From the NCBI GenBank assembly GCA_914767715.1, contig OU612069.1:17171387-17235386 (forward strand): a stretch of DNA of 64,000 nt, given 5' to 3'. This stretch comes from Membranipora membranacea (taxonomy: Eukaryota > Bryozoa > Gymnolaemata > Cheilostomatida > Membraniporidae). The translations under genes were made by a program, and so were the position numbers. The notes below the pieces were generated by a model that saw only the letters and a list, made by a program, of their open reading frames with translations, did not search any database and was not told the origin of the DNA. Positions 8,318 to 63,354 of this stretch are shown in pieces (position 1 is the stretch's first letter; each line of letters starts with the position of its first letter).

Positions 8318-9610
8318 TTATGCATTGTCAAGATTATTCAGTGACCTAGCGATATCAGAATTATCACTAGTCTCACTATGTATTCGCTTATGCATTTCCA
8401 ACGATAGCCTCTGGTATTCTTTAGCTTTGTCATACTCATTCGTTGCTTGGTATATGGAACCTAGATCCTTCAGTGACACAGCGATATCAGGGTGATCGTT
8501 ATTCTCACCATGTATACGCTTCTTCATTTCTAGAGATAGTCTGTGGTACTCTGCAGCTTTGTCGCACTCATTCATTGTGTAGTGAGTGTTACCCAGGTTA
8601 TTGAGTTATATAGCAATATCAGAATGGTCACTATTCTCACCGTGGATACGCTTACACATTTCTAGTGATAGTCTGTAGTATTCCTCAGCTTTTTTATACT
8701 CATTCATTGCGTGGTATGTGTCTCCCAGGTTATTCAGTGACACATAAATATCAGAATGGTCACTATTCTCACCGTGTATACGCTTCTCCATTTCTAGTGA
8801 TAGTCTGTAGTATTCCTCAGCTTTGTGATACTCATTCATTGCTTTGTATGTGGTACCCAGGTTATTCAGTCACACATAAATATCAGAATGGTCACTATTC
8901 TCACCGTGTATACGCTTCTCCATTTCTAGCGATAGTCTGTGGTATTCCTCAGCTTTTTTATACTCATTCATTGCGTGGTATGTGTCTCCCAGGTTATTCA
9001 GTGACACATAAATATCAGAATGGTCACTATTCTCACTGTGTATACGCTTCTCCATTTCTAGTGATAGTCTGTAGTATTCCTCAGCTTTGTGATACTCATT
9101 CATTGCTTTGTATGTGGTACCCAGGTTATTCAGTCACACATAAATATCAGAATGGTCACTATTCTCACCGTGTATACGCTTCTCCATTTCTAGCGATAGT
9201 CTATGGTATTCCTCAGCTTTATTATACTCATTCATTGCGTGGTATGTGTCTCCCAGGTTATTCAGTGACCATGCAATATCAGAATGGTCACTATTCTCCC
9301 CGTGTATACGCTTATCCATTTCTAGCGTTAGTTTGTAGTATTCCTCAGCTTTGTTATACTCATTCATTGCGTGGTATGTTTTTCCCAGGTTATTAAGTGA
9401 CATAGCAATATCAGAATGGTCACTATTCTCACCGTGTATACGCTTACGCATTTCTAGTGATAGTCTGTAGTATTCCTCAGCTTTGTTATACTCGTTCATT
9501 GCTTCGTATGTGTTTCCCAGGTTATTCAGTGACCCAGCAATATCAGAGTGGTCACTATTCTCCCCGTGTATACGCTTATCCATTTCTAGCGATAGTTTGT
9601 AGTTTTTTGT
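8318..9610 (-). repeat. 132-bp TPR-coding tandem array with 264-bp higher-order unit
   Basis: The basic unit is 132 bp (44 codons), about ten copies. Superimposed is a 264-bp period: blocks beginning near 8606, 8870 and 9134 share the same alternation of 'gcgtggtatgtgtctcccagg' -like and 'gctttgtatgtggtaccca' -like spacers. The two blocks 8740-8869 and 9004-9133 are nearly identical. This indicates recent two-repeat duplications or gene conversion. Long frames on the opposite strand here are by-products of the repeat. Confidence 0.75.
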
Positions 9611-31350: not shown

Positions 31351-34300
31351 ATGATTGACAACGAAGACTACTTACATGAGTTTAAGAGGGATTACTCCTG
31401 TAGTGTAGGAGGTAAATACAATCTACAGGTCCAGGTGAAGCACTTGGTACAACTAGCGGAGTTTTATTACAAGAAATACCAGAAAACTGATGACAGGACA
31501 GATTAGCTCAGAGTAAGTTATAATAAAAGAATAAAATTATCTGAAGCAAGACAGAAATTTGTTAGTATAATAAAACTAAGCAGTGCTCCTTAGTCTTACT
31601 ATTTCTTTTAGCATGTTCCACCCTTAGACCTCAAACCAACACGGCATCCTGAAACCTGTCTTTTAACAACCAGATATCACGAACCAATACTTTTTGACTT
31701 TCACAAAGTCATTGCTTTATGCTTTATGTATATAGTAATTTAGTGCATATTGTAAGAATGATATGCTCCTTGATACGTCAACAAAATAACCAACCCAACT
31801 TCTGCAGATTTCAACCTAATTATATTAGGACAATTATTGTGTCATTGTACAGGCGCACGCACTCTTCAACTCTGTATCTGTGAGAAAACCAGGATATGAC
31901 AGCTGGAAAGAGAGAGTATTCGAGGTTCAGCAGTCATTCTGGAAGGACCACCTATGATCAACAGCTGAAAATAACTACTGATCTTCTCTGCCATCTACAT
32001 GAGATACGAGATGAGGTACGAATCAAAAACCAAGTAACTAATGGTCTATCCATGCGCTTCAATGTAGGTACAAGAAAACCGACCGGAGATATGATGGGAC
32101 AGCTAGTTCATTCTGCTCAAACAGTATCTAGACTTTGCACAGAGAGAATGATTGACTTTGTTCACACTATCATAGATAAAAGTGTGCAAACTCTGGTCCA
32201 GGAACCACCATGCTGGGTTTGCGGCTATAGCTATAGGGTCATTAGCTCGAGGGGAGGCAACCCCGTACTCAGATCTCGAGTATATATTTTTGATTGAACA
32301 GAAAACACCGCTAACAGAAGATTATTTCAGGAAACTAGCCATGACCAGCTATTTCCTGATAGGTAATCTCGGCGAAACTAAGCTTAAGTATATGGCTATA
32401 GAGGAACTGAATGGATGGTCTGATGACGAAGCAAAGAATGGATTTAAAATCGATGGGTTGTCTGCAGAGGCTGGAAACATACCAACTGGTAATAGACTAA
32501 AAAGCGATGCATACACCTTCATAACTACACCCAGTGCATTGGCCTATGGCTACGGCATGTACTGAATAACCCTACAAAGGATTCCGTTAAAGGCGATGCT
32601 CTCAAATATGACAGAGGTATACACATATGAGAAGAGTAAGCTACTCTCACGCTTTAAAGTTCTCAATCAAGCTCGTTGAAGAACGGGTCGTTGCAAACAG
32701 AGAAATGCTGGCAAATGATATGAAGAAGATTGAGTTTACCCCTGATGATCGCTTACTAAAACAATCCTACACAGTAGATGTGAAGAGGCAACTCTACAGA
32801 TTTCCCTCAATACTGCTGTATGATCTGGCCGTAATCCATCAGGTGTTTGGAAAATACGCATGGTCAAATGCAGAACAACTGCTTTCCAAAGGAGAAATAT
32901 TGAAGGATTTTTATGAATCACTAATGTTCAAGCTTTCCGTTGCCTGTTTTGTAAGACTGTCAGCTTACCTGTACCATGACTCTCAAGATGACAGAATTTC
33001 GACGGCAGAGAAGAAAGCAGTAGAAACTACAAAAGTAAAACTCTGCACTAAAACATCTGGGGATAGATTGTACGTCCACACAGGTCTAATCCTGGCACTA
33101 GCTGATTTGATGTTCCCTTTGAAAGATGAACTAGGAGAAGCACATGCTGATCAATTAGGTGCTGCATGTGAGGGCTATCAAACAAAAGCTGACGCAGATG
33201 ACCGGACATTACTATGCAAGATATCAACACTCCAGCATACTGGGCACACATTACAAGCATTCAAATTGCTAAATGAGCAAGTCGGGCCAGTTCAGCAGTT
33301 AGTCGATGAGGACATTCTAGACTGGTTTGGCTGTCATAATGCCATCTGTAAACCAGAAATCAAGTATCAGGCTGCAAATATTTTCATTGATAACTTATAC
33401 TTTGTGAAAGGGCTGAAACTTCTAAGTCATCTCAAAGAGAATTACAAGGAATACAACAAAATATCGGTTATTTCATAGGATTGCTACCTGCCAGCGTCAT
33501 CTGGGAAATCAAACTGCTGCTCTTCACACCCTTCTGGGGAATGTTCATGAAGATTCATCAGGAGAATACTCTCTTAGCATAGGGCGCTTATATGTTGATT
33601 TGAGAGTATCTCCTATGTGAGAGCATGCCAAGAAGTGAAGTTTGATTATTATGGTGAACCTATCGACAGCTCAGAAGAAAGCAACATTGGGAGAGACCTA
33701 CAAAAGTTGGCGACTGAGGAAAGACTACTTTTTTTACAGCAGCCAACCTCAGCCTTGTTTGAGTGTATAGAGGCACTGGCGTATTTGTATGATGAACAGT
33801 ATGACCAGGCCACCTCAGTCGAGTACAGCAGAAATGATCAGAGTATGTTTGAAAATTTGTATGGAGAGGAGAGTTTAGTACCTGAAGCTGCTCATGGATA
33901 TTATGTAGTCGGATTGGCCCTCTACAAACAAGAGCATTATGAACAGGCTAAAATGTACTTCGAAAATTCAACGGCAACATACTACAGGATTTACAGTAAG
34001 ATTGTCGATCATCCAAAAGTTGCTCTGTTAATACTAATAACCGGCATAAACTATATTGAAATAGGTGATTTATCTGCAGCTGAGGGGTGTATGATTTCAT
34101 CCCTTGACATGTACAAACGTATCTACGGTGAAAACAACTTTTGTTCGGACATGGCCGATACTGTGAACTACAGAGGATATATAATGGAACTTATGAGGCA
34201 GTATGATGCAGCAACAAAATACTACAAATATGCGATAAAAATGTAAAAGTGTGTACATGGCGAGACTAGTGACCATTCAGATATTGCTACAGCACTGAAT

Positions 34301-35745
34301 AGCCTTGGGCTCACTTACTCTAGTATGAGTAGGTATCATACTGACTCTCGTGATCTGACTGGGCATGTAGATCACTGATAAACTAGGCTATCATTACCAC
34401 AAAGCAGGTGTCGTAAGGCTAAGTATGCATCATGCGTGACTTGAATTTGCGCATGTGCAAGAACAATGAGTTTAGTTTGGGTTCTGATTGCAACTTTGGA
34501 AAGGGAAAATTGGATACCCCCTGCATAAACTGTCAATAAAAATCAGCTAATAATGACAAGAGAGGATAACTATCAATAACAAATCCGCACGCTTTGGGGA
34601 GTATGTCACCAGAGCAGGTAGCCAATCAGATGGCTTCGGAATTCCGAGACTCAATTTTGCAGAGATAGGCTCATGCCCAGAGCTGAGCATGCGCAGAATG
34701 AGTAGGTATGACAAAGCTGAAGAATACTACAGACTATCACTAGACATGCGTCAGCGTATACATGGTGAGGATCAAGATCATTCTGATATTGCTCAGTTAC
34801 TGAATAATCTGGGTACCATATTCTACGCTATGAATGAGTATAACAAAGCTGCAGAATACCACAGACTATCACTAGAAATGGAAAAGCGTATACATGGTGC
34901 GAATGGTGATCATTCTGATATCGCTACGTCACTGACTGAACTAGGTAGCACATTCAGAGCAATGAATGAGTATAACAAAGCTGAAGGGTACTACAGACTT
35001 TCGTTAGAAATGAGTAGGCGTATACACGGTGAGAATAGTGACCACTCCGTTATCGCTCTGTCACCGAATAATCTAGGTACCACATTCTATGCATTGAATG
35101 AGTATAACGAAGCTGAAGGGTACCACAGACTATCGTTAGAAATGAGTAAGCATATACACGGTGAGAATAGTGACCACTCCGTTATCGCTCTGTCACTGAA
35201 TAATCTAGGTACCACATTCTATGCATGGAATGAGTATAACAACGCTGAAGAATACCATAGACTATCGTTAGAAATGTATAAGCGTATACATGGTGAGACT
35301 AGTGACCATTCTGATATTGCCACTACACTGACTGAACTGGGTACCACCTACAATGCAATTTATGAGGTTGACAAAGCTGCAGAATACTGCAGGCTAACAC
35401 TAGAAATGTATAAGCGTATACATGGTGAGAATAGTGACCATTCCGTACTCGGGTACTGCATATCAAGCAATGAATGAATATATCAAAGCTGAAAAATACT
35501 ACAGACTATGGTTAGAAATGAGTAAGCGTGATATTGCTTCGTCACTGAATAATCTGGGTAACAACTACTACGCAATGAATGAGTATAACAAAGCTTCAGA
35601 ACACTACAGACTATGTTTAGCCATGTTTCAGCGTATACATGGTGAGAATAGTGATCATTCTGATATTGTAGTGATAAGGAATAATCTGGTTATCAAAGAC
35701 AAAGAAATGAGAGACAGACGACGAATATGTTGTCTGATCAGCTGA
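31351..35745 (+). pseudogene. Nucleotidyltransferase-TPR gene, copy 2 (inverted, heavily mutated)
   Basis: This is a paralogue of the minus-strand gene at 8318-13603, with the same architecture. Exon 31351-31512 equals the first exon (162 bp, ATG directly after TTTAG) but has an in-frame TAG at 31504. The second exon starts at 31853 after TTGTACAG. Lesions visible against copy 1: an 11-bp deletion near 31950, an extra base near 32212 just before the GSLARGEATPYSDLEY motif, frame breaks near 32550-32630, 33478-33617 and 34246, and a 361-bp insertion at 34337-34697. The TPR array (34689-35745) then resumes with 44-residue units, with another break near 35470. The 7-T tract near 33729 keeps frame where copy 1 has eight. 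Shared intron sequence shows the duplication was at DNA level, not by retrotransposition. Confidence 0.75.
34337..34697. mobile_element. 361-bp insertion in the TPR pseudogene
   Basis: The insertion is flanked by identical 12-bp direct repeats, atgagtaggtat, at 34325-34336 and 34698-34709, inside what should be a continuous TPR unit. The insert is non-coding and holds gcgcatg/catgcgc words. No clear terminal inverted repeat is seen. The direct repeat suggests a target duplication, but its true length may be shorter because the flank is part of a repeated coding motif. Confidence 0.5.
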
Positions 35746-36063: not shown

Positions 36064-39000
36064 TATTCTTCAGATGAGTTGTTGTCCTATTCTATATGCA
36101 GTTGTCGCTCTCAACTCTGCATTGACTGGAAGCGGTGAGAAAAAGGCCAAACAACTGCCTGCTATCCTCTTTTCAATCTGTGAAGAGAAGTTTGGCTTAG
36201 TTGCGAAACGAGGTGGAACTCAGTGCACCAAAATACCAAATAGACGCCAATGTGAGAAAGGCAAACTGAGAACTCAGCAACGCGCGCTGAGAGAGAGAAT
36301 GAGAAATTGCGCTGAATCAGAAAGGCATGGGCTTTTTGTATTGCTTAATGATGTCAAGGAACGAAAAAGAAGGCTAGCCAGAACTGAGGCCTTGAGGAAG
36401 AAGAAGCGAAAGAACTTGAACAATTTCATGAAAAATCCATACGGATTAGCCAAGAAGTTGTTTGAGCAGAGCAAGAGTGGCGAGCTCAAAGCTAGTCAGG
36501 CAGAAGTTGAGGCGCACTTGGCAAAAGTGTACGGTAACAAGAGCGAGGTGAACACTGATATTGCTGGGCTTAAACGTCCAACATCTCTAGGTTTCAGTTT
36601 TGAGATGGGTGATATCAAGCTTGGAGAAGTTGCACATGTAGTTACCAAGGCACTTGCCAAAAGTGCTCCAGGCATTAATGGCACCAGTTATAAGCTATAC
36701 AAGAAATGTCCAGGCATACTGGAGATCTTGACAAAAGTGCTCACCCAAATCTAGAAGTCTGGCAAGATCCCAGATGAGTGGTGTTGTGCGAATGGTGTGT
36801 ATATACCGAAAGAGGATAAGGCGGAGGACCTAGGGCAGTTTAGACCAATATCACTGCTAAATGTAGAAGGCAAGATATTCTTCAGCGTTCTGGCAAAACG
36901 CCTGACAGATTATCTTATGAACAATGGATTCATTGATCCATCAGTTCAGAAGGCAGGCATCCCAGGATTCCCTGGATGTCTTGAGCCTGTGAGCATGATT
37001 TGGTCAGCAATAAAATCTGCTAAGCAAGCAAAATCAAACCTTGAGGTAATCTGGTTGGATTTGGCGAATGCCTATGGTTCTGTACCGCACAGCATAATTG
37101 ACCTCGCACTATCACACTTCTGGGTGCCCGACAGGCTGAGGGTTATGGTTGAGCGCTACTATAAAAAGTTCAAAATGCGATTCACTACTAAGAACTTTAC
37201 CACGACCTGGCAAGAGCTGGCAGTAGGCATCCCTATGGGATGTGCTATACCACCTTTGCTATTCGTTATGGTGATGGAGATATTTATACGGAATTCACAA
37301 GGCAGTTTGAATGGGATCCAGGTTGCGAATAACCAGATACTACCGCAGATGAGGGCCTTTATGGACGATATTACAATAATAACACCAGATAAGGCCCGGG
37401 TTTTAGCTTCAATCGATAGACTGCATGAGTTGATAGAGAGATGTGCGAAGCGATTTAAACCTAGCAAGAGCCGGTCCCTGTCTTTGTGTAAAGGCAAACC
37501 TGTACCAAATACCTACCTCATAGGAACAGAGCGTATTCCCAAGCTTGCAGAGCAGCCTGTGAAGAGCTTAGGAAGATGGTATAGTTTACCGATCATAGAC
37601 AGGTTTCGCGGAAACGAGGTGCAAAAACAACTCATTACAGGGCTGCACACGATTGAAAAATGTGGTCTGTCTGGTAAATACAAAGCCTGGATTCTCAACT
37701 TTGCACTCATGCCTCGAATTCTGTGGCCTCTGACAGCTTATGATATTCCGCTTACACCAGTTGAGAGAATGGAGCAAATGATTAACAAGCACATGCTTAA
37801 GTGGCTCGGAGCTCCAAGGAGCTTCAACACTAATGCACTGTATGCCAGTTCGTTTACTCTTTCACTACCTATGAAATCGCTTGTGGAAGAGTACAAAACA
37901 TAAAAAGCGAGACTGGATATGATGTTGACCGAGTCACCAGACCAGGTGATAAGGGAATGTGCTCCAAAAATTGACACTGGTAAAAAATGGTCTGTCACAG
38001 AGACTGTCAGAGATGCCAAATCTCGACTGAAGATAAGTGAGATTGTGGGTGCTGTGACCATGGGCGTCAGAAGGATTTACCAAGGGGTGCTCCTTTTAGC
38101 TGTGGAGTAGTTAGTGGCATGTGTAAGCGGGGAGGGTGTGGGAGGGGCGCAAAGAGTCCCGAAAAGAGACATTCTGGTACATACCAGCCAACTTTTATGG
38201 ATGAGCAACACCAAGCATGATACCAAAAATATTTAACAGCAACAGCCTCTTGCCCGGGCCCCGATTAAAAGTTCTAGCGATAAAAGAAAACATTGAGTTC
38301 CAATTGTTAAAAAAAAAATTTAAACCTCCCAAGGGGTGCTCACTTGAGCACCCTGAGCACCCCTTCTGACGCCCATGGCTGTGACAACTGCACGTCATGG
38401 CATCGGCTGGGAAGCAAACCGGTGGCTCTCAAAGGAAAGCCCAAAGGTTAGACGGGAGATGGTAGTTGATGAGGTGCGCAAGATGGAAGAGGAGCGCCGC
38501 CAGACACAAGCTGTAGGCCAAGCCAAATAAGGTAGGTGGACTTGTTGGGAGTCTGTTGAGCAGCGTCAGCTCAAATGGACTGAATTGTGGTCGATGGAGC
38601 CACAAAGGATCAGCTTTCTGGTTGGTGCAGCTTATGATCAACTACCGACCCCGGCAAACCTGGAACGCTGGAATTTGACCGAGAACTCGAAATGCGCCGA
38701 GTGCTCGGCCAAGGGCACACTTCGACATATACTGTCGAATTGCCAACAGAGCCTGGGAAGATACATGTAGGGGCATAATCAAGTCCTGAAAGTATTGTGT
38801 AAATATGTCACGGAGAAGTGTGAATATGCTAATGCTGGTGGTGAAGCGTGTGAAAAGATTTTGCGCAAAAAGGGATTGATGAACAGCGGAGAATGGCAGG
38901 TGAGATGCGACCTCACAGAGCAGCTCAGCATGCCGCAGCATATTGTGATCACGAACCAAAGACCAGACTTAATTGTTTGGTCTGACAAAGAAAAAGCACT

Positions 39001-48661: not shown

Positions 48662-48666
48662 CCATC
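48662..48666. repeat. Target-site duplication, left copy (CCATC)
   Basis: CCATC sits immediately outside the TACGGCAG tip and is repeated exactly at 63350-63354 beyond the other tip. The 5-bp match is direct evidence that the DNA between was inserted as one unit. Confidence 0.85.
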
Positions 48667-48852
48667 TACGGCAGACGAGCTGCGCCATGTGTTGAAAATA
48701 TTTCGGAATGGCGCAGCTCGGCTACATGAGTTTCACATGTGGCGCAGCTCGGCTAGGTGAAGTTTACGTGTGGCGCAGCTCGGCTAGAGGCAATTTTCAC
48801 GTGGCGCAGCTCGGCTAGAGGAACATTTATTAACCAAGAGGACATGATTCCT
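48667..48852 (+). repeat. Left terminal inverted repeat
   Basis: The tip TACGGCAGACGAGCTGCGCC is followed by four direct units with core GGCGCAGCTCGGCTA at about 30-bp spacing. The last shared block is acatttatta...aagaggacatgattcc. The tip itself contains the reverse complement of the unit core (gagctgcgcc), so tip and subterminal units face each other. Such arrays are usually transposase-binding sites. Confidence 0.85.
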
Positions 48853-48906
48853 AATAGTTATAGACTTGTACTTGCTTACTCATATGTCGGAATTTGACTT
48901 AGGCCA

Positions 48907-51036
48907 ATGGGTGTCCACATCTCTGGCGGGAAATGGATTATACATAGCTTAAATTTAGTTGTAGAGAACACAGTTTTGGCTCTTCAACATCTTATTATGG
49001 CTGCTGAGAATCTTAAGGATACTTTTTATGGAGAGTGCAGGCTGTGTGAATGTTCATTTATGGGAAGTTCCAATCATCTGTGTGGGTGTGGACATGACTT
49101 CGATGTGCATGTAAGTAAGCAGCCAGGGACTTAAAAAAAGGGCTGAAAGTGAATGTTTTAATTAACCTCACAACTCCAACTACTATCTATCATTATCTAG
49201 TATACTATATATATATATATAAATATCTACTACCAATAATTATCATCACTTCTACCATAACTACTTCTGTCTATGTCTGTTGGCTCCTGATCAATGACTA
49301 TTTGTTTCCATATGGAAAGATAGATGTTATAATAATAATAGTACTAAGTAGCAGAAAGTGAGAATAGTCAAGTCATATAAATAAATTAGTTCTTTTAGCA
49401 CAGAACTCTCATGTCAGTGTCAACTCAACTGTCATACTCAACTCATACAAGTCAACGCACATTACATTGGTGCATTATTCATTTATCTACGCAAACAATC
49501 AATCATACAAGATTTCATTTGGATATCAATTGATAAAGATGGCTCATAGCTATATATATGTTGTTTTTGATCTAGATCAAACTGGGCATGTGCAATGAAT
49601 GTGAAGATAATGATGATGGTACAGAAAAATGTCCTGGATTCCTTACTGCAGGAGCAGTTGCACAGTGCTATCACTGTCTCCATTCTCCAGCCTCCCATGC
49701 ACAATCTTCCAGAGGTAATGTATAAAACTGCAATGACATGTCTTGTGCCTGTGGTACATTACAGATTGCTACTCAGTTATTGTAATTTGTTGATGATTTT
49801 GAGAGTCTAGTTTTATAGCCCTCCTTCAATTCCTGAAATCGACTAATGTATATCACTTTTGATTAGGTTCTGACGAGGAAGAATCTCTCCGTCGATGGGT
49901 GCTGGAGGGGCACAAAATCGAAGTCGTGCGCAGACTGTTTGTCGAGAGATATATAAAAGACATAAGGTAGACATCACATAGGACTACATGTTGCAATAAC
50001 TGAACAATACCTATTTGTTATGGCTTAAATAAAGGCGCATGTAAATGACAATATCTTTGAACATCCAATACGGGAAACAATGATTATTACCACGAAGAAT
50101 GGAATATCCATTATTGATGCACTGGTCTGCTTACTGCATATCCGGTTCTCTCTCAAAATCATATCCCGACAAGTCTGGAGTATTATAGCTTTATGTTTTA
50201 GTTGTACCTATTATTAATTACAGTCGGAGGACTTTGCAGCGAAGATTACATCTATACGGAATTAAATACTCTGAGGACAAAGAAATAACTGATGAGCAGA
50301 TACTGGAAGCTGTGAGGGTGAGCATGTTCATCGTTGATACTTAAATGGGGATAATGTACCAGCAAATCACTTTGGACCATCGTAGTGAATCTGTACGATT
50401 ATCCCTTTGCTACAGATTTTTATCAGGTAACATTATACATTTTAGAAGGAGAATGCTTTGGGAGTGTATGGTTACAGAAGATTACATTCTAATTTGAGGA
50501 TCAAACACAACCTAGCGGTGACCAGGTCAGTTGATATAGATCCAGTCACAAGTTCACATGTTTTGGTTTCAACCTGAAAACAACTTGGTCTAGTCAGTCT
50601 CCTATGACTTTTAGGGCATGTTCAGTTTGGCTGCTTTGGGCTGTATTTTTCCACTTTTTTTAATTAAATATATTTGTCATGACCTGCAGGGGAGGGTAGT
50701 TGTATGAGAGTTTACTCTGCGGAGAACAGACGATTGTCGCTCAATGTAGCCTTGCTAGTCCATCTGCTTATACGGAAAATCCTTTTTATCACAGTTTAAT
50801 TGTTGTAAGTGTTGTAATTTATGAGTTGGGTATGTTTGAGATATGTGTGACTTCTTGAGAGGTGTTAATAGTGTGGGTCGGTTTAAGTTGATCAGAATAA
50901 CGACATTTATAACTCGCCTGGAATTTTGTAGAGATCGGGTGACTGACTTGGTTATATCTCACGAGTTTCCGAGAGGAGTTGACCCTAAACTTGGAAGGGG
51001 CAGGCTTCACCAGAAGCAGTTTATATCAAAAGTATG

Positions 51037-51073
<37 letters not shown>

Positions 51074-52995
51074 CCGACCTCTTGATATCACACAAAACTA
51101 ATCTTGTTCAATAATTTTAATACTCTGTTAACAACTAAATTATCCCTGCCAAATTAAACTTAGTTGTTACCATCTTTCAAATGACTTCTTTTGTGATTAA
51201 GGGTCCAAATTGGTTGTGGTCAGTAGATGGTCATGAGAAGCAGGCTCAGCCATTCGGAGTGTATATCTACGGAATCATTGACACATTCTCAAGAAAGATT
51301 TTGGCCCTGCATGTCTTGCCTGACAAGAAGAAGGAAACAGTAGGTAATTGGCTGCTAAACGAGATCTGCCATATTGGAGGTATGTTTGAAATAATATTGC
51401 CATTGTCTTTATTTTTTATCCACTGCTTTGTGCTATGATGCATGTATGCATGTTACTTCGAAATGTAAGATAGCACATTTATTTTGGTAAATATTTTATG
51501 ACCGTGTAACAGCAGGGAGTTTGGGTCAAGCTCCCTACTGTTCCCCTTTCACCGGTCGCTCATAGCTTTATCTTCTGTGTGAGTTGTGCCCTCCTTGAAT
51601 ATTTGTTCAGATAGGACATAACTCCTATAGAAAACCAACCTGCTTTTTGATAAGCAACCTAGCAGCGATTAAACCGATGAACCGCCTCATCGTTTTAATT
51701 GCAATTTTATGATGTATGTGCAATTCTTTATCCAGGGCTTCCGAATCAGATAATGGTAGATAAGGGAACCGAGTGGAACATGGTGGTGGATGCTGTCAAC
51801 ATCATTCAGATGTCAAGTGTATTTAATCAGGTGAGCAATATTTTGAAAATAATCCAGTCATACATAATAACGTTTAACGAGATTGAGTGTGATCAGAGTA
51901 ACCTGCAGTTGGAGTTTCTCCAATCCCACGGTTAGTTGCTGCCAGTATCTACTACTACTCTTGTATGCTCAATCTTGGCTAGTAGTGGGTTATAAGCCCC
52001 TTTTCTCAGTTTACTGGTTACCGTTTGAGACATTCATCAGGGATAACCTGGACTATTAAGGGGAATAAGCGTGTGGTATGACTTGTTGTTAGGGACAGAA
52101 CTGAATTGAACAGAAATGGCTGTCGAATGTTTCTTTTGTTGTCTTATTTGCAAGCCGCTTATATATTCAGGATGTGACTCAAGCGTTTACGGCCAGCGAG
52201 GGAACATTTAGATATGATTTCAATGTTGTAGAAAATTGAAGCGTTTTGGGGCAAATTCAACGCACACTCAGACATGCGATGGTATAGAGAAGTATTGAGA
52301 GAGCTTGAGACTGGCGGCTTTTTCGACAGGAACGCAGAATTAGACAAGTAAGTTACTTAGATCGGGTGACTGGAATAATTCCTTCAATTCTAATTCATCA
52401 ACGGTAAACTTATTGAAACATGGGACCGGTTTGATACATAGAATTTGGCTTATCTGCATTTAAGTTCAACATAAATCTTAAAGTGAAGGTAGGCTTATAT
52501 GAGTACAACTATCTTCTTAAAATGTTACAGGTGGGTAGTATGGAGGACATTTTCCTCGATGATACAGAGCTCACTTAACCAGTACAAGATCACCCATAAC
52601 ACAAGCAGGATCAGAAAACAAAAAAACCTGCTCTTACCAAGTGGATATTCCCCTAACCATATGTGGGAGCACCCACATATGCTCAATTCTGGTAGGTTTT
52701 TGAGCTTCATCGATAAAGGGAAAGCATGGTTAACTAGCATTCAAGTTGTGGCTGCTTTGAACTTGTGAGTGTTGAGAACTCATGTCCGTTTCTGTTGTAT
52801 AACAATGACATCCTCAATATTGTATTCATTCAATTTATAGAGGACTACATGGAGCCACTGATGCAGCGTCCGGACATCCCATCCTCTGCAGGGCTGGGTC
52901 TGGACAAATACATACTACCAGCTCATTTAATGGTAACACCAACCAAGGAGAACTGCAAGGAGCTTTATATAAATATCAGACAGAACATTATGTAA
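48907..52995 (+). CDS. IS3/IS481-like DDE integrase (transposase) of the large transposon
   Basis: Eleven exons with consistent phases give 473 codons: 48907-49110, 49576-49714, 49867-49966, 50224-50317, 50446-50525, 50932-51031, 51202-51379, 51736-51830, 52232-52347, 52531-52691 and 52841-52995. Residues about 43-105 are Cys/His rich (CRLCECS, LCGCGHDFDVH, MCNECED, CYHCLH), a likely zinc-binding region. A helix-turn-helix region follows (SRRTLQRRLHLYGIKYS; GVYGYRRLHSNLRI, like IS3 HTH_21). The catalytic core has D248 in WLWSVDGHEK, D307 in MVDKGTEW and E333 in SVFNQKIEAFW. The D-to-E gap of 25 residues is shorter than usual. All introns have GT-AG ends. A polyadenylation-like aataaa overlaps the stop. 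The protein should cut and rejoin the element's ends. Confidence 0.88.
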
Positions 52996-53040
52996 TAAAT
53001 AAATTTATCAGATATAGCTGAGATCTCATGTATTGTAACA

Positions 53041-53172
53041 AACTAACTAGTTGGTTGGTATTTGTTACTAGCCCTGTTCACACGGCCACGGGTTTTGGTT
53101 TTTTGCCAACAAAACCAAAACCCGTGGCCGTGTGAACAGGGCTAGTAACAAATACCAACCAACTAGTTAGTT
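53041..53172. repeat. Perfect 62-bp palindrome with 8-bp loop
   Basis: 53041-53102 is the exact reverse complement of 53111-53172; the loop is ttgccaac. The hairpin lies 45 bp after the integrase stop and 380 bp beyond the kinase stop, between convergent 3' ends. It could be a shared terminator or 3'-end hairpin, or a young foldback MITE nested in the element. Complete arm identity implies recent origin or active correction. Confidence 0.85.
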
Positions 53173-53552
53173 ACAAACTCTCAAAACAATGTATTTAATA
53201 AGAAAATCATAGCTTGCACAGTGTTTGAATTTTAACTAACAGTAGATGGTCGCAGGTACATATAAAATTGATATATTGTAGATATGTATAAATCATAATA
53301 TATTGTGCACAAATATTTATGCATGTTTTACTACACACATATATGAACATAATTAACCCAGACTCGCAAAATCAAAATAATGTTAAATAAAGAATTGATG
53401 GCTTGTTAACTTTTTAAATGTAAAAATTTCCAAAAATATTTTATTTACAGATATGTCATGTACAGATGTATTAATTATCATATTTTTAGCCTCAGTATAT
53501 TTTGTTTTTTATTTACACTGGTGTGTATAATAATAAATAAACATATTGTCTG

Positions 53553-56500
53553 TCAGCGCATTTCGTCAAGTTGTCCCAGAATGGCCTTGGCAGAAGGCCG
53601 CCTCTCCTCTCCGTACTCCATCAAGCTGGATAGCAGCTTCTGCATTAGCGGTGGCAGAATCTTGTGCGTGCTAGGAAGCTGATTATCGTAGATCTCCTTG
53701 GGCACACGCACTTGTGTCCCTGGTATTTTCACAGTCTGTTTACCCCATGCTCTTTTATCTAAAACAAAAATAATTGTTAAAATCTGCTGAGCAAGTGCTT
53801 ACTGAACGACTTGCTAGGATGATACATTGTCAACTACTAATAATTCCAAAGAAAATGTCTATCAACTCAGTGTACAGATCACAATTTCAAGCTGTTTATT
53901 AGCACTATGATCGGGAATCCCCTGTTCTCTGAGAAGTGCGCTTCATTATCAACCCTATGAATGCATGTAATTTACACACCTGTGAATAGCTCATGCATTG
54001 TTACTCCCAGGGACCAGATATCACAGTGAGTAGAGACGCGTGTTCTTCGGAGGAGCAGCTCAGGCGCCATGTAGTACACTGTACCTAAGATAGATAAATT
54101 TGTAAAGACATTATTATCACATTGTACACTGCTAGCTGATGTGGTATGTACCTTCTAGGACGCTAGGTAGTTTACATGTTTGCAGGTATGCATTTTTGGT
54201 ACATTGTCTTTCATGTTGGAAGGCTCCACTCAGAACAAGAGTGGTTGATTTTGTGGTCCGCTTAGATCGATGCATTCGAGTCTGTCTAATGGAATGGTGG
54301 AAAAACTAATAGCACATATGTGTATTTTCTGTGGAAAACCCTCAGATCAAACCAACAAGCAATGTTAAGATTTCAAGAGAGGAACGACATTTTCTGAGTG
54401 CGTTGAAAGTGGATTTTTCCCTGTGTCTGTCTTGTTTTCTTTCTGCTATTTCAGGACAGCAAAATAGCATTAACTGAGCCAAATTACTTCAAATAAAGGT
54501 ATTTCTGTTCTTATATCTAACTCATTTTAGCTCTTTGTTCTGGAATGTCGTACCTGAGTGTCCACCAGCTGAGATACTCGTCATGGAGCTGGTGAAGGCC
54601 GCAAAGCCAAGATCAGCGATTTTGGCAACACCATTGAAAATCTAAAATTTAAAAATATTACACTTGTAGACGGCTAGGTTGGGTATATAGAATTAATAAT
54701 GTAAAATGAGAATAGGCTCATACAGTCATAGAGAATGGTGGTGTACCAAAAATTATAAATCCATCGTCAATAAGTAGAATATAAATACCAAAATCCGTCA
54801 ACAGAACGCCATTCCAATAACTCTAATTACAAGTTTTTAAAATACTTGATAAAAAGCTGTGGGTCCCTAAATGTGTTTATATTTATGATAATACATCATT
54901 TTTACCACTTTATTCATTCAAGAAGAAAAGGAAAAGGGGAGAATAATCTTAACAATTTGAATCTGTTTAGTTTTTGTTTAGTGTATCATCAGATCCAATA
55001 TTACCATGTGATAAAAGAAATGGATCACAGGTGCTCTGGGTAAACGCGATACTAAAAATATTTCAACTTGAATAAAAATTGCTGTAATGGTATTTAGTGG
55101 CATCGGAGAAGTGTTTGGATTCTTACCAAAATATTCAGTGGCTTTATGTCCTGATGGACAATTTTCTTGAGGTGAAGGTATGCCAGCCCGCATGCCATAT
55201 CTCTAGAGTATCTTAGCTTTGTACCAAAGTCCTGCAACCAAAAAGGCATACACATGAATGCAATGAAAACCATGAATAATGGTGTGATAGCACATCTCAG
55301 TTTCAAGCAAATTTTAAAAATTACCCTGGCATGGGAGAAATGAAGAAACCTGAGTAACCTAGAGTGAATTTGAGTGATTGAGGATCATAAATTACGAACG
55401 TTGCAAGCCTGTAGGGTTGTAATGTAACTTACTTTACACTGTGCAGTCACTTGGCGTGTCGTCCTACTCTGAATATACTTCTCTAAGTCTGATGATGCTC
55501 GCCCCATAACTACTCCCACCTGGGTTCCGACCTGGATAACCCCAATGATCCCAACAATATTCTTGTGACTCACTCTCCTACAAAAATCATATATGAATCA
55601 CATAATATCAATGTGTTCAGTATATTTGACAGCCTATAAAATGTAAAAGATTTGTAATAATGTTTCTATCACCAGGTAAGGATTAATGTTGAAAGATGGA
55701 AAAAAAGTTACATCTTCAGATTACAAGTTTTCGGTTGCGATACAATTTGTCTATACCTAAATTGATAAAGATGCCATGACAATATATCACTGCTGAAGTG
55801 GAAGAGATTCAAGTGCTAGTGGTTTCGAGATCCTAGTTGATGATTTCATTGTGCGTAATGATGACTTACAAAAGATACTGAATCTCCGGGTCATCCAGTA
55901 TGTCCCCGACCTCCATCATCTGGCGCATAACTTTCACTGCTACTTCTCCTCCTTCAAACGTTCCTCCGTATACCTGGGCCGAAATACCAGCTCCTAGTCC
56001 CTTATTGTAGTCCACGGAAACACCCTCCAACACTGAAAGATTACACTCCAAAATGCAGGCACATTGTATCACCAAACAGCAGAAAATTATCATTATACAA
56101 TCACAACATATAATATCAAAGTACAAATATGTCAACATGTAGGATAACAATATATCTATTGAAACAAAGTAACAAAACGCATTCTTGTATTAACCCTATC
56201 CTTTAAAAACCGCCTATGCATTGATGGCGAGTCCTTTTTTAGCCTTAGCATCTCTGCAGAATGATGATTTTTCTGAATTCTAGCCAAGTCATTGATCAAG
56301 CCGAAATGCCGGTATATTTTTTCAACAACAATTGATATATACCTCAGTGTTAATCAAGATTATGCTTTGGCATTTAGATGAAGGCAATTTTATTAACTCG
56401 CAAAACTGATTATGTGGAAACTTACATAGCAGCTGGTCCAGTTCTTTATTGGACCTATCCCTCTCATCTCTCAACTGTTTCTAAAAAGCAATAATTTAAA

Positions 56501-59500
56501 TATGTATTTTATCCTAAGTCAATGCTAGGAGTGTGAACTTGGTGAAGATCCCACAAGTATATAAGCGACGCACACGTTGATGAGCTTACACAACTGAGAG
56601 AACTGGCCGATTAAACACGCCCTGAGCGTTGATTGATGGGGAAAACAAAGGAGCGTAGCGGTAGGTCTCTAGATTTGAGTATGATAAATAATCTTAAAAA
56701 ATTTTTGTAGGATTTGAACACAGTTTAACAGTGTCTAAGAGAGAAGTTGTAATATCATAACCCACATAGAGTCCATCATGCTATATAATCTTACCTCTCG
56801 TTTCAGACATTCCACCTCTTTCTCCAACCTACTGATCTGGAAGGTGAAAGGAGATCAGTTTTATATTTGAGTAGAACATTTGATGTACCGTTATGGTGTG
56901 GTGATGGTGCCATCTGATGTTAGCCAGATGTTAGCAAAAAAAGCTGCATTAGTTGTCTAGCACCAATGCTCTGGATGATACAGCTAAAGCAAGGAGCAAT
57001 GTATGTAGTTGATTTGTGGTAGTGCCAAAAGTCTTGGGTTAAATTTACGGCTGTGGTGGCACATTGATTGAACCATATATCTGCATACTCGCTTGATAAC
57101 TTGAGGTACAAACAACACAAGGTCAAATTTAACAACAACCTCATGCAAACAGTTGGAAATTTTGTACTGTCCTACCTTCATACTCCTCTGCTCCCATTCA
57201 TCTGGGCTGGCAGCTGCAGGTCTCTTTGCCAGCTCCGATCTCCCCTCTTGGGCTGTCTCATTCTCCGGCCTCCTCTGTTTGGCTGTCTCATTCTCCGGCC
57301 TCCTCTGTTGGGCTGTCTCATTCTCCGGTCTCCTCTCTTGGGCTATCTCATTCTCCGGTCTCCTCTGTTGGGCTGTCTCATTCTCCGGCCTCCTCTGTTG
57401 GGCTGTCTCATTCTCCGGCCTCCTCTGTTGGGCTGTCTCATTCTCCGGCCTCCTCTGTTGGGCTGTCTCATTCTCCGGCCTCCTCTGTTGGGCTGTCTCA
57501 TTCTCCGGCCTCCTCTGTTGGGCTGTCTCATCCTCCGGCCTCCTCTGTTGGGCTGTCTCATTCTCCGGCCTCCTCTGTTGGGCTGTCTCATTCTCCGGCC
57601 TCCTCTGTTGGGCTGTCTCATTCTCCGGTCTCCTCTCTTGGGCTGTCTCATTCTCCGGTCTCCTCTCTTGGGCTGTCTCATTCTCCGGCTCTGGTCTCCT
57701 CTCTTGGGCTGTCTCATTCTCCTGCTCCGATCTCCTCTCTGGGTCTTTGATCTCTGCTTGGCTACATGTTGGCACTTCAATGGTAAAAACAAATGTAATT
57801 TCAACCAAATTTTTTATTTTTTAATTGATAAAACCTAAAAAATATTTAACATGAAAGATAAAAATAGCTTATTATAGAGATGAGAATCAAAGTGTCTGTC
57901 CAATGTGTGACTGCAGCCAGATATCGACATTGTCATCACTTTGTTAGACAGTGGATTGTCTTTTTTGATGATATTCATTCCGATCTTGTTCGCGGCATAC
58001 CAGAAGCTGTAGCAGGCATTTGGCTGTTATATTTCCTTAGTCTCATTTTACCAGTCGCCTGTTTCATTATAAAGATAATATAAGATTTGATATGTCATAC
58101 ACAAAACATTGACTTACATCCATTCAGCTGACGGTACATAATTCCCATGGGTCTCCTCTTGCTTGCAGCTTTATCCGTTCTAAAAACAACAGTTTTTTAA
58201 TGAGAGTACCAATTATATATTGGGGTTTATTTCTAATCAATGTTACAGTTTTTTTGTACCCCAAATTTAGTTGACTGTAAGCCGGAGATCACTCAATCGG
58301 TGGCTTTGTTCAGTAGGTGGCAACAAATGAAAACCTCTTTATACTTCCGAATCCAATTGAGATTTAGCGTCATGGCAAGCCATATCACTATCAACGTGTG
58401 AGAATATACGTGTATATGTTTATGTAATGAAACAAAAATGCCTATTAAACCGATGTGCATTTTGTCTTCATCTGATAAGTTAGAAATAAAATTTCTGGTG
58501 AGCTACTAACAAACACAGTGAAGAGATTGTTGCAGACATAGTATCAGGGCATGCAGTCTGCTGCAACGCCCTCTCTAATTTATAATTTTCTAATTACTTA
58601 TTGACATTGCCGCATTAAGTTATGGTGTAAAATCTGCACAAATTATGGTCCTCACCTGCCAGTTTCTCCATCACCTCTCTTACGGGGGGGAACCAGAGGT
58701 TTCTTAAACTGTAGTGCTGGCAGTGGCAAAGGAGGGCTGTAAGATCACGGAAAAAATTAATTATCTAACAGAAGTGAGAACTCACCTCCACTATCAAACA
58801 AAACTGGACTCAAAAGTGAAAAATGACTAAATATGAATAATATTGTCCTTTGGGAGAGAAGCTTATTGGAGTAAAGAGAGGAGGCAGAAAATATTTAGGT
58901 AAAACAAACTATCTAGAATTCAATTTTTGTGTGAGAACAATATCTATTACTACCTCACAGATTTATCAAAGAGCCCTGCATGTTTAGTCTATTTTACTGA
59001 TGTTGCATAGAATTAAGTTGAATTAAACAATTGATTTAAAAAATGTACCAAACCTAGTGAAAATCAAATAAAGGCTCACCTCAAATTTAACACAACACAC
59101 TCTCTGTCATTCTCGTCAGCATTATCACCTATGGAAAAAAAACAGATCTCACACATCAGAACATAGAACATCAATGAGGTAGTACAAACTCATTAGGAAC
59201 AAAATTGGGTCCTGGGGTGTTTTGTTCCTATGAGGTAATAATTCATTTACAGAAAAAGTACAGGAGGTTGACTATACACCTCTTTTTTGAACGAATGTTT
59301 TAGAGCAAAAAATAAGGATTCTGAGTTGACGCTTTGAATCTTGGCTCATAAGCTTGGTATACACAAATGATACAATGGTGCTTGGGTCTGAAACAGATTC
59401 AAATCAATTGTATTCACATGGATAATCCTCGTCTAATTATCTTCACTGCAATTTCATTCAGTTTCATCCAGATCTTTGATTTCTGGTTTATCAACTGGCT

Positions 59501-62500
59501 ATCTCAGCTGTGCGAAAATTAAGTATGCCCAAATAATCCTCAATCAAATATATCCCAAGTCTTTCGATTTGACAGACACCCTCCAACCAATAGTAAGATT
59601 ATCATAATGAGTATTATAAACATTTGTGCAGCAATGGATTATGCCATATTGACTCAATATTAAAAATCTTTATGTCAAACTGACCAGCCAGGATTTACTT
59701 TCACAATTGTAGCTCATCAGATCATCTAGAGGAGACCCAATCTTGTGGTCCTTGCTTGAATCCCAATTAAATGCTGCAACAACTCAACACAATATTTCTG
59801 CAATGGGTATATCTATATTGTACAGCATGGGTGGGCTACCTTTTTCGAAACTGGTCACATTTTACGCAGGAGCAACTCAAAAGTCGGCAACATATCTTTC
59901 AGGCATAAAATTGGAACAGGGGTGAAAGTTTTGGCACTTCCTATTTTGTACAAACTAAAACAGATTTATGAATAAAAATTGCGGTATGTAGCTAGAAACA
60001 TCAGCCCAACAGAAATACTGATTTATCTAATCTTCTGAGGTTTTGCTGGTCATGTTACCTAATGATTTTCAGGATTTGGTTGTGTACATGTTTGTATCCC
60101 AGTGTTTCATGTGTATGGCAAAAGGGCAAAGCGGAAATTTTCGCCAATGTTTGTGATGTGAGAAACCAAAATGCAGGTAACATGAGAGTTTTTTGATACA
60201 AATCTGCCTGTCGACTTAAGAATGACGGGTTAGGAAGCTAAGCTACATGCATAATACAGAATGGCCACATTTTTGAAATATATTATGATTACAAAGCGGT
60301 ATGCCTTCTTGGATATCCGCATTACAAAATGGGAATCAAAATTAATGTGTAACTACTTTTACAGGCATGCAGCCACAATAAGACACAGAACAGCCGCAGG
60401 ATGCCCATAGCTGATCTACAGTGCCCAAATTGAGAATGTGGGTGGTATGGTAGTAAAATGGTATATAACAAATAATACTTACATTTTCTGAAAAACAGTT
60501 TGTTAGGGATGGTGCCGGGAGTATCCTTATCAACATGAAGGCCTTCTTTTCTTAGGAGCATCCTCCCGCTGGCCCATCCTGTCTTTACTAAACACTGCTC
60601 ATATAGTGACAGGTATGTCCTGTCTTTAGGCAGCACCTACAATAAATAAAAATGACAGTTTTAAAACTCTAATATCTGCAGCTTGTGCTTGTGCAATTAA
60701 CATGAAACCTCCTTACTCTCAAACTTTTTAGAAGAATGTGTATCAGCCAATGAATGCCACACCAACAAAAATAGTTGTGATGATCCTAACTCTAGTCAAG
60801 TTGTGACTTAGTAATTAGAAAATCAGTAAATTATTTCAATAACAAATAATTGTTCCCAAAAAACAGAGTTGGAAAGGGAAAACATACACTGGAATATTTA
60901 TGAATAGAATAATAATTCTATTCATATTACACAACTTCTAAAGAATAGACTTAATAACTGAGACAATTTCAGTAGACAACTCACCACAATTCCAAGTTTA
61001 AACCAAAGGATTAGTAAAAGTAATATAATAGCTCAGCGCAACAACAAATAAAGTAAACTATAGATTACATCTTAGATTGATGAGCTGATAGCAAAGATGT
61101 ACTCCTGAGGACTCCACTACACAGGAGGACAACAATGATACAGACTATGACACCATTAACAACTGACCAAGAATAATAATGCCCCTAGAAAGTCGCAAAG
61201 ACAAGAGAGAAGACTCGATATATGACATGTTATACAGTTAATTATTGACAAATTCCTAAAATAAAACTTCAGGGAAAATGTTTACTTTTTCAATAATAGA
61301 AAGGAAATAACCACATGTAGCAGTGAATAAAATTTGATAAATTAACTTACGTAATCCACGCACAGGCCCTTGACACGAGTCTTGGTCCCGTCGCTCTCTT
61401 GGAAAACAACCTCAACCCCCTGAAAATAAAAAATAATTAATAAATCGGATCGCGTAGTTGCACATAGCGGGAATGTCTTTGTGCAGTTGGCAGCAAAGAT
61501 CGTACACGTCATCAATGACTAGGGAGCGTATCTTGCTAAGTGGATGGGCGGTATGTTCCCCCACCAAAAAATGCAAAGATGAAGGCTAAATGATGCTTGG
61601 TAAATGTAAATAATATACATATATCAAGATTGAAACATTTATCACGAAATTCGGCAGTTTGTGCCTTTCATAGACTGGCCTTATTTAATTGGAGACCACA
61701 ACGTGCCATATGTCACACATGATTATTTGGTGTGTAATGAATGGACAAGGGCCAGAGAAAGATAAAGTCAACTTATCACAGATGTTGGCTTGTTACTCAC
61801 CAGCAAGGGCATCAGGCTATCTTGCTTCTTTTCTCTCTTCTAAAAAGGGATTAACTTGTAATAAGTTTTTGGAACAGTAAGGTAATTTTATGGATTAGAT
61901 AAACCGTGAATTCTCTGCAAACAGACTTGCCCTTCGTCAAATAAATCAAGAGTAATTCATCGAATTCATTTTTTGCCAGATTTTCTGGATAAAATTTATT
62001 GCTGATAACTTCTCGATTTCAAGAAAAGGCTAGACCATGCAATGATGAAGGATGTTATCTCCTGTGTGGTTATGCAGCAACCCACTGGTGTGAATTGTCA
62101 TGTTTGTATCAGTATCAATTAAAAGTTTGACAAATTGTTTGTAATTGTGGTATTAGGTCAGACTCGCGCTAACAGATTGAATTAGGTTTTCGGGTGAGGA
62201 TTTTGGCCAGCAAAACCATAAGCCCATTTATTTGTAGTGACCTCACTTAGATTGTCAAGCTAGCAGAAAACAATGTCCATACATTGCTTCATTTTTTTTT
62301 AAATGTTATATTGGTTATTATAGAAATTTCATGAAAATCGATTATTGGCAATGAGTGGAAGAATAAATTTTATGACTTTACCATTAGTAAGATAGCAATG
62401 AAAATTCCATTTTTGTATAGTATATATATAGCTTCCTTTTTAAAAAGTGGATTTGCCAGCAGAACCAAATGAGATCACTTATTTATATCTAAAATGAATG

Positions 62501-62973
62501 CTCTTCTGAGTAAGGTAGATAGTCAGGAAGATAGTTTCCAAAGTGCCAATGAATAAGTCACTGATAACTTCAAACCCTCCCTGTTCAAACTAACTGGTTA
62601 CAAACACTGATCACAACTCAACCCATTATTAAATCATTGGTTAAACCACCACACCAAGGAGTTCTCTAACTCCTTGGACTAGATCAAACAACAATAAATC
62701 AATGAGCATGGTTTGCATTAGAAAAACCTTCACTAAGGCACAGCTGAGTTTTTGCTCAAAATCAAAGAGACTCACCTGTGGCTTCCTGACTCTTATGGTT
62801 TCCTCCTCTTTTTCAGTTCTGATAACCACATGATGCCTAGCTCCATGCAGGCATACCTGGCAGGTGTGAAGTCCCTTGTTGTGAGTAAATTGCTTACACT
62901 CACAGCAGCTGACCTGACAGGCACCTCGTGACTTTCCAAACATATCGATGTTGTTATTAAGGTTATTAGCCAT
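53553..62973 (-). CDS. Transposon-encoded Cys-finger / decapeptide-repeat protein kinase
   Basis: Fifteen minus-strand exons keep phase throughout, giving 706 codons: 62776-62973, 61351-61419, 60483-60636, 59080-59128, 58656-58736, 58118-58179, 57176-57774, 56795-56836, 56426-56480, 55870-56032, 55433-55577, 55127-55231, 54554-54641, 53980-54084 and 53553-53758. Residues 19-48 hold a Cys-rich finger (C23xxC26, C38xxC41). Residues about 205-390 are mainly RRPENETAQQ repeats. Two short exons (405-436) look coiled-coil. The kinase domain spans about 440-706: glycine loop GLGAGISAQVYGG, VAVK (K470), SHKNIVGIIGV, HQDIKPLN (D567), DLG in place of DFG (D584), MAPE (E612) and DIWSLG (D625). All catalytic residues are present, so activity is plausible. 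The substrate is unknown; the integrase or host repair and chromatin factors are possible. The start lies about 160 bp inside the right terminal repeat. Confidence 0.87.
57235..57720 (-). repeat. 30-bp coding minisatellite in the kinase gene
   Basis: About 16 units of 30 bp, in frame, encode RRPENETAQQ with minor variants (TAQE, PEDE, an extra PE). Neighbouring units are almost identical, so copy number probably changes readily. The peptide is highly charged and likely disordered or helical. Long open frames on the other strand here are by-products. Confidence 0.9.
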
Positions 62974-63135
62974 TATTAGGTTGAGTAGGTACTACTAGTC
63001 TGTGTGAGTTGCTATCTGTGAATGAATGTGTATGCAGACCAAGTTGAAAATAGTGTAACGTTTAACACCTCCAAAAGACAGAGAAGACTCCGCCCATCCT
63101 TCCGATTGCCTACTACCAGACTATTCAATTTGGGA

Positions 63136-63349
63136 GTCGTGTCCTCTTGATTGATAAATGTGGCTCTAGCCGAGCTGCGCCACGTGAAAATGTTCCTCTA
63201 GCCGAGCTGCGCCACGTGAAAATTGCCTCTAGCCGAGCTGCGCCACACGTAAACGTCACCTAGCCGAGCTGCGCCATATGTAAAACTCATGTAGCCGAGC
63301 TGCGCCATTATGAAATATTTTCAACACATGGCGCAGCTCGTCTGCCGTA
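63136..63349 (-). repeat. Right terminal inverted repeat
   Basis: Inverted partner of 48667-48852, with the same tip and the same order of spacers (acatgag, aggtga, agaggcaatttt). It has five GGCGCAGCTCGGCTA units instead of four: one additional 30-bp unit next to the inner edge. Beyond the units, the homology continues as tcaagaggacacgactccc in element orientation. Confidence 0.85.
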
Positions 63350-63354
63350 CCATC
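63350..63354. repeat. Target-site duplication, right copy (CCATC)
   Basis: Exact copy of 48662-48666, immediately outside the CTGCCGTA tip. The remaining 63355-64000 contains no supported gene. Confidence 0.85.

Follow-up and report, generated by a model that had tools for sequence, protein, structure and literature searches.

Does a protein kinase gene carried inside a DNA transposon serve the element, or does it travel as a passenger? The question was raised by a stretch of 64,000 nucleotides from the bryozoan Membranipora membranacea (positions 17,171,387 to 17,235,386 of contig OU612069.1; here, the window), in which an earlier note had described a transposon with a transposase gene and a protein kinase gene facing each other. 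In the usual view of eukaryotic DNA transposons, a transposase suffices, sometimes together with a DNA-binding partner. The transposon, designated element A, is real, intact, and unusual, yet precedented: it has a eukaryotic-type protein kinase (ePK) where fungal relatives have an alpha-kinase. We consider it fairly probable that element A belongs to the IS3EU kind of cut-and-paste transposons, intact and active until recently, and that its kinase aids transposition or escape from control.

Element A occupies 14,683 bp (48667-63349), and a perfect 5-bp target-site duplication, CCATC, read directly in the sequence, lies outside those limits (48662..48666 on the left and 63350..63354 on the right, neither assigned to a strand). 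The span first proposed, 48662-63354, marked the right locus but counted the duplication in. The matched tips, TACGGCAG from 48667 and CTGCCGTA ending at 63349, were confirmed, as were the duplication and the long terminal inverted repeats (TIRs) of 162 bp, one at 48667..48828 on the + strand with a TACGG tip and the other at 63188..63349 on the - strand, 97% complementary to the left arm. The 20-mer tip occurred twice in the window with up to 3 mismatches and not at all in 100 shuffles. The left arm contains 3.7 copies of a 31-bp subterminal tandem repeat with the unit TGGCGCAGCTCGGCTA... (48709..48823, + strand), and 5.1 copies of a 31-bp unit are present on the right (63156..63315, - strand).

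The two convergent spliced genes without internal stops that the earlier note had reported were likewise confirmed, with 11 and 16 exons, GT-AG introns throughout, and one terminal stop each; 557 bp separate them. The transposase gene (48997..52995, + strand) has exons at 48997-49110, 49576-49714, 49867-49966, 50224-50317, 50446-50525, 50932-51031, 51202-51379, 51736-51830, 52232-52347, 52531-52691, and 52841-52995 and encodes 443 amino acids. The protein consists of a Cys/His-rich N terminus, a part resembling the HTH_21 helix-turn-helix (HTH) domain, and a DDE core formed by D218, D277, and E303, with just 25 residues between D277 and E303. The same triad had been numbered D248, D307, and E333; it is present, and the numbers differ because the start lies 30 residues later in this model. 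Resemblance to IS3/IS481 transposases, also proposed in the earlier note, was supported by profile matches to rva_4 (2.4e-19), rve (1.8e-7), and HTH_21 (7e-4), the latter two below their cut-offs, and by the NCBIfam models for IS3 (E 3.8e-12) and IS481 (E 1e-10), the bit scores of which (46 and 42, respectively) fall far short of the curated cut-offs of 160 and 224. Plasmid-borne IS3 transposases match the protein at <60% identity. The Cys/His-rich N terminus had no match among Pfam zinc families, and a PDB sequence search with the transposase gave a single meaningless match (E 0.22).

The kinase gene (53553..62973, - strand) encodes 719 amino acids in exons at 62973-62776, 61839-61801, 61419-61351, 60636-60483, 59128-59080, 58736-58656, 58179-58118, 57774-57176, 56836-56795, 56480-56426, 56032-55870, 55577-55433, 55231-55127, 54641-54554, 54084-53980, and 53758-53553. 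An N-terminal Cys/His module and a repeat region are followed by an ePK domain at residues 459-712, which matched the Pkinase profile at 9.4e-41; the Alpha_kinase profile gave no match at E 1. The hallmarks of ePKs are a Gly loop, the VAVK Lys, the alpha-C Glu, and the HxD, DxG, and APE motifs. All were found (G461-G463-G465, K483, E499, HQD at 578-580, DLG at 597-599, and APE at 623), with HQD in place of HRD and DLG in place of DFG, and the gene is predicted from these motifs to encode an active kinase. Its nearest PDB relatives were MAP3K12, followed by PHO85 and RAF1, with CDKs not far behind. The repeat region corresponds to a 30-bp minisatellite in exon 8 (57233..57722, - strand; 16.1 copies), which encodes 10-amino-acid units such as ENETAQQRRP. 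The minisatellite stays in frame, and six of the eight variable columns among 16 units alter the amino acid.

The gene models were picked by eye for open frames. Intron-derived pieces of equal lengths, drawn 5000 times for each gene, contained on average 27.9 stops for the transposase and 32.7 for the kinase (minimum, 11 and 17; the repeat exon was left out of the kinase set), compared with none in the models. The splice models are further supported because the integrase and kinase domain matches span exon junctions.

The suggestion that copies with the same tips be sought elsewhere proved fruitful. A search of the genome (339 Mb in 18 contigs) with the TIR gave at least 44 matches, with the best 40 of 199 candidates scored, and copy counts are lower bounds. 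Among the matches found, the whole element was present at three loci, A, B, and C, each with the kinase gene, although that of copy C is broken. Copy B (C2:33.80 Mb; 14,605 bp) is flanked by the duplication GTGAC, and both of its genes are uninterrupted; its transposase is identical to that of A, and its kinase is one repeat unit shorter, the minisatellite copy number being unequal between the two. Across 14,334 compared bases, 32 substitutions (0.2%) separate A from B, and the two lie at unrelated insertion sites with different 5-bp duplications. Judged from these two near-identical sequences, element A has been shown to be recently mobile. Copy C (C5:4.62 Mb; ∼19.0 kb) carries four inserts (48 to 3022 bp), a damaged left tip, and 314 substitutions relative to A in 14,132 bases (2.2%). 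The transposase of C has an open frame of 442 amino acids, one codon fewer than in A. Of the 19 substitutions in this frame, 13 alter the protein, so that C looks like a copy in decay without selection. That there is no mobile element at all, with assembly or chance having arranged two genes between inverted repeats, is extremely improbable in view of whole-length copies elsewhere that differ in their flanks and duplications, one of them lying on another contig, and of the many related non-autonomous elements in the genome.

Fourteen such loci (L024-L037), selected from the matches of the TIR search, form one related family, with TIRs that are 90% similar over 121 bp and lengths of 2.4 to 8.9 kb where both ends were located. 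Neither the transposase nor the kinase was matched in these 14 loci by tblastn at E 1e-3, and they are most plausibly non-autonomous passengers. According to the earlier note, copies with the same ends but no kinase would speak against the kinase as part of the element; since the transposase was not matched in these loci either, they appear to be non-autonomous and provide no refutation. At L016 and L017, related elements lie in pairs, the neighboring ends separated by 9 and 14 bp.

Evidence that the kinase has a longer association with the transposase came from diverged relatives. A protein search of the genome with the transposase gave at least 87 matches, with the best 95 of 141 candidates scored. 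Element E (C1:40277099-40297248; 20,150 bp) has TACGG tips, TIRs of ∼130 bp, and the duplication CTAGG. A 6-bp duplication, CCATCT, would be conceivable from A alone; the 5-bp duplications of B and E ruled it out as the rule. All 11 transposase exons were matched in order in E, and kinase exons 1, 3, 4, and 11-16 of the 16 were matched downstream on the opposite strand, so that the pair is again convergent. Between A and E the transposases are 57% identical over 405 codons and the kinases 46% identical over 273 codons, the kinase count being made on exons 3, 4, 11, 12, 14, 15, and 16 only. Differences at codon positions 1, 2, and 3 were 0.34, 0.23, and 0.61 for the transposase and 0.45, 0.36, and 0.65 for the kinase, and the codon had changed at 60% of shared residues in each (131 of 217 and 72 of 121, respectively). 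Equal synonymous turnover together with fewer changes at positions 1 and 2 indicates that kinase and transposase descended together, that the two have the same divergence age, and that both were constrained. By this codon comparison, the kinase has been shown to have accompanied the transposase since the ancestor of A and E. In element F (C2:32.27 Mb), kinase exon 15 lies downstream on the opposite strand (0.001 against the kinase of A and 1.9e-8 against the E exon); exon 16 gave a nonsignificant match (E 1.3), and no kinase exons other than 15, and perhaps 16, were found there. The proposal that the kinase is a fixed part of the element thus held in the sense of a lasting component, carried by all three full-length copies found with the ends of A (broken in C) and by the diverged E, and accidental capture of the kinase was largely rejected after E and F had been found.

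Parts of the kinase also occur elsewhere. Matches to its N-terminal 218 residues (18 in the genome) were confined to A, B, C, E, and three other spots, namely, two exon-1-like copies at C1:17711689 and C1:17713056 and one spot at C1:25220919; no transposase match was among those listed near these spots, around which 2.5 and 2 kb were examined. In a search with the catalytic domain, nine places on C3 matched the last exon and two on C9 matched exon 12. Eight of the C3 places are within 0.7 Mb of one another (C3:27.5-28.2 Mb; 68-82% identity), and the ninth is at 30.5 Mb (59%). They were rejected as further kinase elements: the one of the nine that was examined (L045) contains just the convergent 3' ends of both genes and is for this reason taken as a fragment from the middle of the element. 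One of the two C9 places was examined and has kinase exon 12 alone.

The N termini of the two proteins offer a second link between the genes. The E kinase starts with the pattern CPGF-x8-CxxCLH-x4-H, which recurs in transposase exon 2 of both A and E; the A kinase has CKQF-x8-CxxCLH-x4-H, in which the spacing is kept. In local alignments of the A transposase with the E kinase, none of 10000 shuffles was as good, compared with 71 of 10000 for transposase E with kinase E and 286 of 10000 for transposase E with kinase A. The modules of kinase and transposase are probably homologous by these alignments, with the likeness faded in A. By its pattern the module would be of zinc type, and it could tether the kinase.

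Several observations weigh against a lasting role of the kinase in the element. In copy C the kinase is broken while the transposase frame is open: it has a stop in exon 1, a 4-bp deletion in exon 2, a lost exon 8 donor, and a 270-bp insert in exon 11, which indicates that the kinase is not kept copy by copy. The A-E codons were chosen via protein alignment, and six of the seven E kinase exon models were required to be stop-free, so that the conservation between A and E is overstated. The E transposase has one in-frame stop in exon 7, and the E kinase is without 8 residues ahead of the catalytic Asp, among them the His of HxD. Element G (C3:8.30 Mb) has no kinase in the 7 kb downstream, nor later transposase exons bar one match at E 1.3, and element H (C4:1.59 Mb) has no kinase in 5 kb, with transposase exon 6 matched and no significant later exon. 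No listed kinase match adjoins the remaining diverged transposase loci, where the A kinase as query would miss diverged kinases. The module alignment between the transposase and kinase of A itself is weak and nonsignificant, with 940 of 10000 shuffles as good, and with 9.7% and 19.7% of 5000 in separate runs; the likeness emerged clearly only when element E was included.

The broken kinase of copy C, the lack of any kinase in the non-autonomous copies, and a catalytic domain that is an ordinary ePK by its PDB relatives would suit a kinase that began as a host gene, was captured once by a common ancestor of A, E, and F, and has persisted by chance or to the benefit of the host, with no role in transposition. 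We regard such a passenger as unlikely because the co-inheritance is constrained across 54% protein divergence, the convergent position of the kinase is common to A, E, and F, its module is related to the transposase N terminus, and in other elements a kinase or, by position, a HECT ligase occupies the corresponding place.

Known superfamilies were compared in order to place element A. In complete IS3EU elements the termini are invariably TA..TA and the duplications usually 6 bp long, according to PMC10045372, and in PMC12730594 the Pucciniales TET+ IS3EU families have ends TAYGG..CCRTA and 6-bp duplications. Element A has the inverted repeats, duplications, and dispersed copies of a cut-and-paste DNA transposon, excision being deduced from anatomy. 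The termini are TACGG..CCGTA in A, B, and E (the left tip of C is damaged), and the transposase of A is an IS3/IS481-like DDE enzyme without the integrase HHCC domain, as in IS3EU. Given this fit of termini and transposase, the sequence makes element A IS3EU-like and very probably a member of the IS3EU/GingerRoot superfamily. Its 11-exon transposase gene and its ePK gene differ from IS3EU. The 5-bp duplications of A, B, and E depart from the usual length, whereas the related non-autonomous copies of this genome agree with it: among 11 family copies with both ends found, the duplication was 6 bp in 9, 7 bp in 1, and absent in 1, yet element D (C8), of the same non-autonomous family, has a 5-bp duplication. 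Bacterial IS3/IS481 elements share the HTH_21 and rve core with element A, which differs from them in its spliced genes, its kinase gene, and scores far below curated cut-offs.

The earlier note had considered a kinase as second gene not to be a standard arrangement. This did not stand, because the fungal TET+ IS3EU families, all of them according to PMC12730594, already pair a transposase with an oppositely oriented alpha-kinase gene. A kinase in such a transposon is therefore not new as such; the kinase type is. The fungal elements and element A are alike in the kinase gene opposite to the transposase, but the former have an alpha-kinase and a TET/JBP gene in between, according to the same source, whereas element A has an ePK (a Pkinase and no Alpha_kinase match) and a 557-bp gap. 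A genome search for alpha-kinases gave one locus (C1:30.39 Mb, three matches), away from any transposase match listed. Styx of Zymoseptoria is also IS3EU-derived, with a new insertion flanked by the 6-bp duplication TGTGAT and a parental copy by CATAAG, and its degenerate copies are mobile too; it differs in having four coding sequences, and the sole kinase mentioned in the portion of PMC10853768 consulted is a host gene duplicated near Styx. Among papers on transposon-borne kinases, judged mostly from the titles listed, PMC12730594 alone proved relevant, and PMC12810828 did not. An 18-mer match in a viral contig (L001) was rejected as a chance match because the repeat is not continued in its surroundings; searches of viral contigs and of genome contigs gave no relative, and Rfam and tRNA scans found nothing.

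The place of the kinase appears to be taken by another enzyme beside related transposases. Other rva_4 (PF24764) transposases were matched 25 times in the genome, at 13 loci below 1e-30, a limit for strong loci of our own choice. They resemble that of element A in the integrase core family and in a convergent second gene at many loci, and they differ in being mostly one open frame of ∼180-340 amino acids. A genome scan for HECT domains (70 matches, with 74 of 74 candidates scored) placed a HECT C-terminal exon, convergent and on the opposite strand, 0.9-1.7 kb from eight of the 13 strong loci (C3:10.08, C3:24.73, C4:27.01, C7:6.38, C7:6.63, C7:6.99, C8:10.48, and C8:20.76). The locus at C4:27.01 Mb (L049), the only rva_4 locus examined downstream, has the exon at 942-1265 on the - strand (3.1e-8). 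At C5:26.63 a HECT exon is on the same strand, 2.8 kb on, and none was listed at C5:27.17, C11:11.34, C8:10.61, and C2:37.45, nor at the weaker rva_4 matches. Five of these HECT matches have similar scores and probably represent close copies from a single family, so that the independent cases are fewer than eight. A HECT ligase thus appears, judged by position, to fill the place of the kinase in sister elements.

How might such a kinase act? From the anatomy of element A, the transposase, with its HTH and DDE core, would bind to the TACGG tips as well as to the 31-bp subterminal repeats, cut the element out, and integrate it through a 5-bp staggered cut. The kinase would be drawn to the DNA-protein complex of the element by its N-terminal zinc-type module, related to that of the transposase, and would phosphorylate the transposase or a protein met at the complex, and transposition would then proceed or escape control. 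The same gene place may be filled by other protein modifiers, the alpha-kinase in fungi (PMC12730594) and, by position, the HECT ligase in this genome. We interpret the second gene as a slot that protein-modifying enzymes can fill, and its retention with the transposase across distant copies suggests that protein modification is part of the workings of such elements.

The kinase might instead act on the host, for example, on chromatin factors or factors of PIWI-interacting RNA (piRNA) silencing, and keep the element expressed, much as transposon-borne TET/JBP enzymes are thought to counter methylation. Host factors could be disabled by a ubiquitin ligase as well as by a kinase; however, the shared module slightly favors a common target site, and we hold an action on the host to be a real possibility of lesser probability. 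A wider proposal, to which we give a little under even confidence, is that IS3EU-like elements have a fixed architecture of a transposase and a convergent protein-modifying enzyme, that the type of enzyme was swapped over evolution (alpha-kinase, ePK, or HECT), that modification is a general step of transposition or silencing escape, and that the kinase is tethered by the shared module. If this is true, modification by an element's own enzyme would be a so far unrecognized general step in the superfamily, and a kinase coevolving with its transposase, together with ubiquitin ligases in the corresponding place of sister elements, would turn protein modification encoded by the element itself into a principle open to testing. 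The question would then be what is modified and whether the modification licenses transposition or disarms silencing; the intact, near-identical copies A and B allow a direct assay.

A perfect palindrome with 62-nt arms and an 8-nt loop (53041..53172, without strand) lies between the 3' ends of the two convergent genes of element A and could be a putative terminator for both transcripts. The self-complementary match is present in copies B and C as well, and a 35-nt part of it matches the non-autonomous locus L034 near 7973-8007.

Elsewhere in the window, a gene with TPR repeats is present in two inverted copies, at 8331-11801 and 32079-35710, which match at ∼74-93% over pieces; the first copy gave a match to a DUF294-type nucleotidyltransferase domain. 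A reverse transcriptase frame at 36755-37903 (RVT_1, 1.1e-20) probably belongs to an element resembling long interspersed nuclear elements (LINEs).

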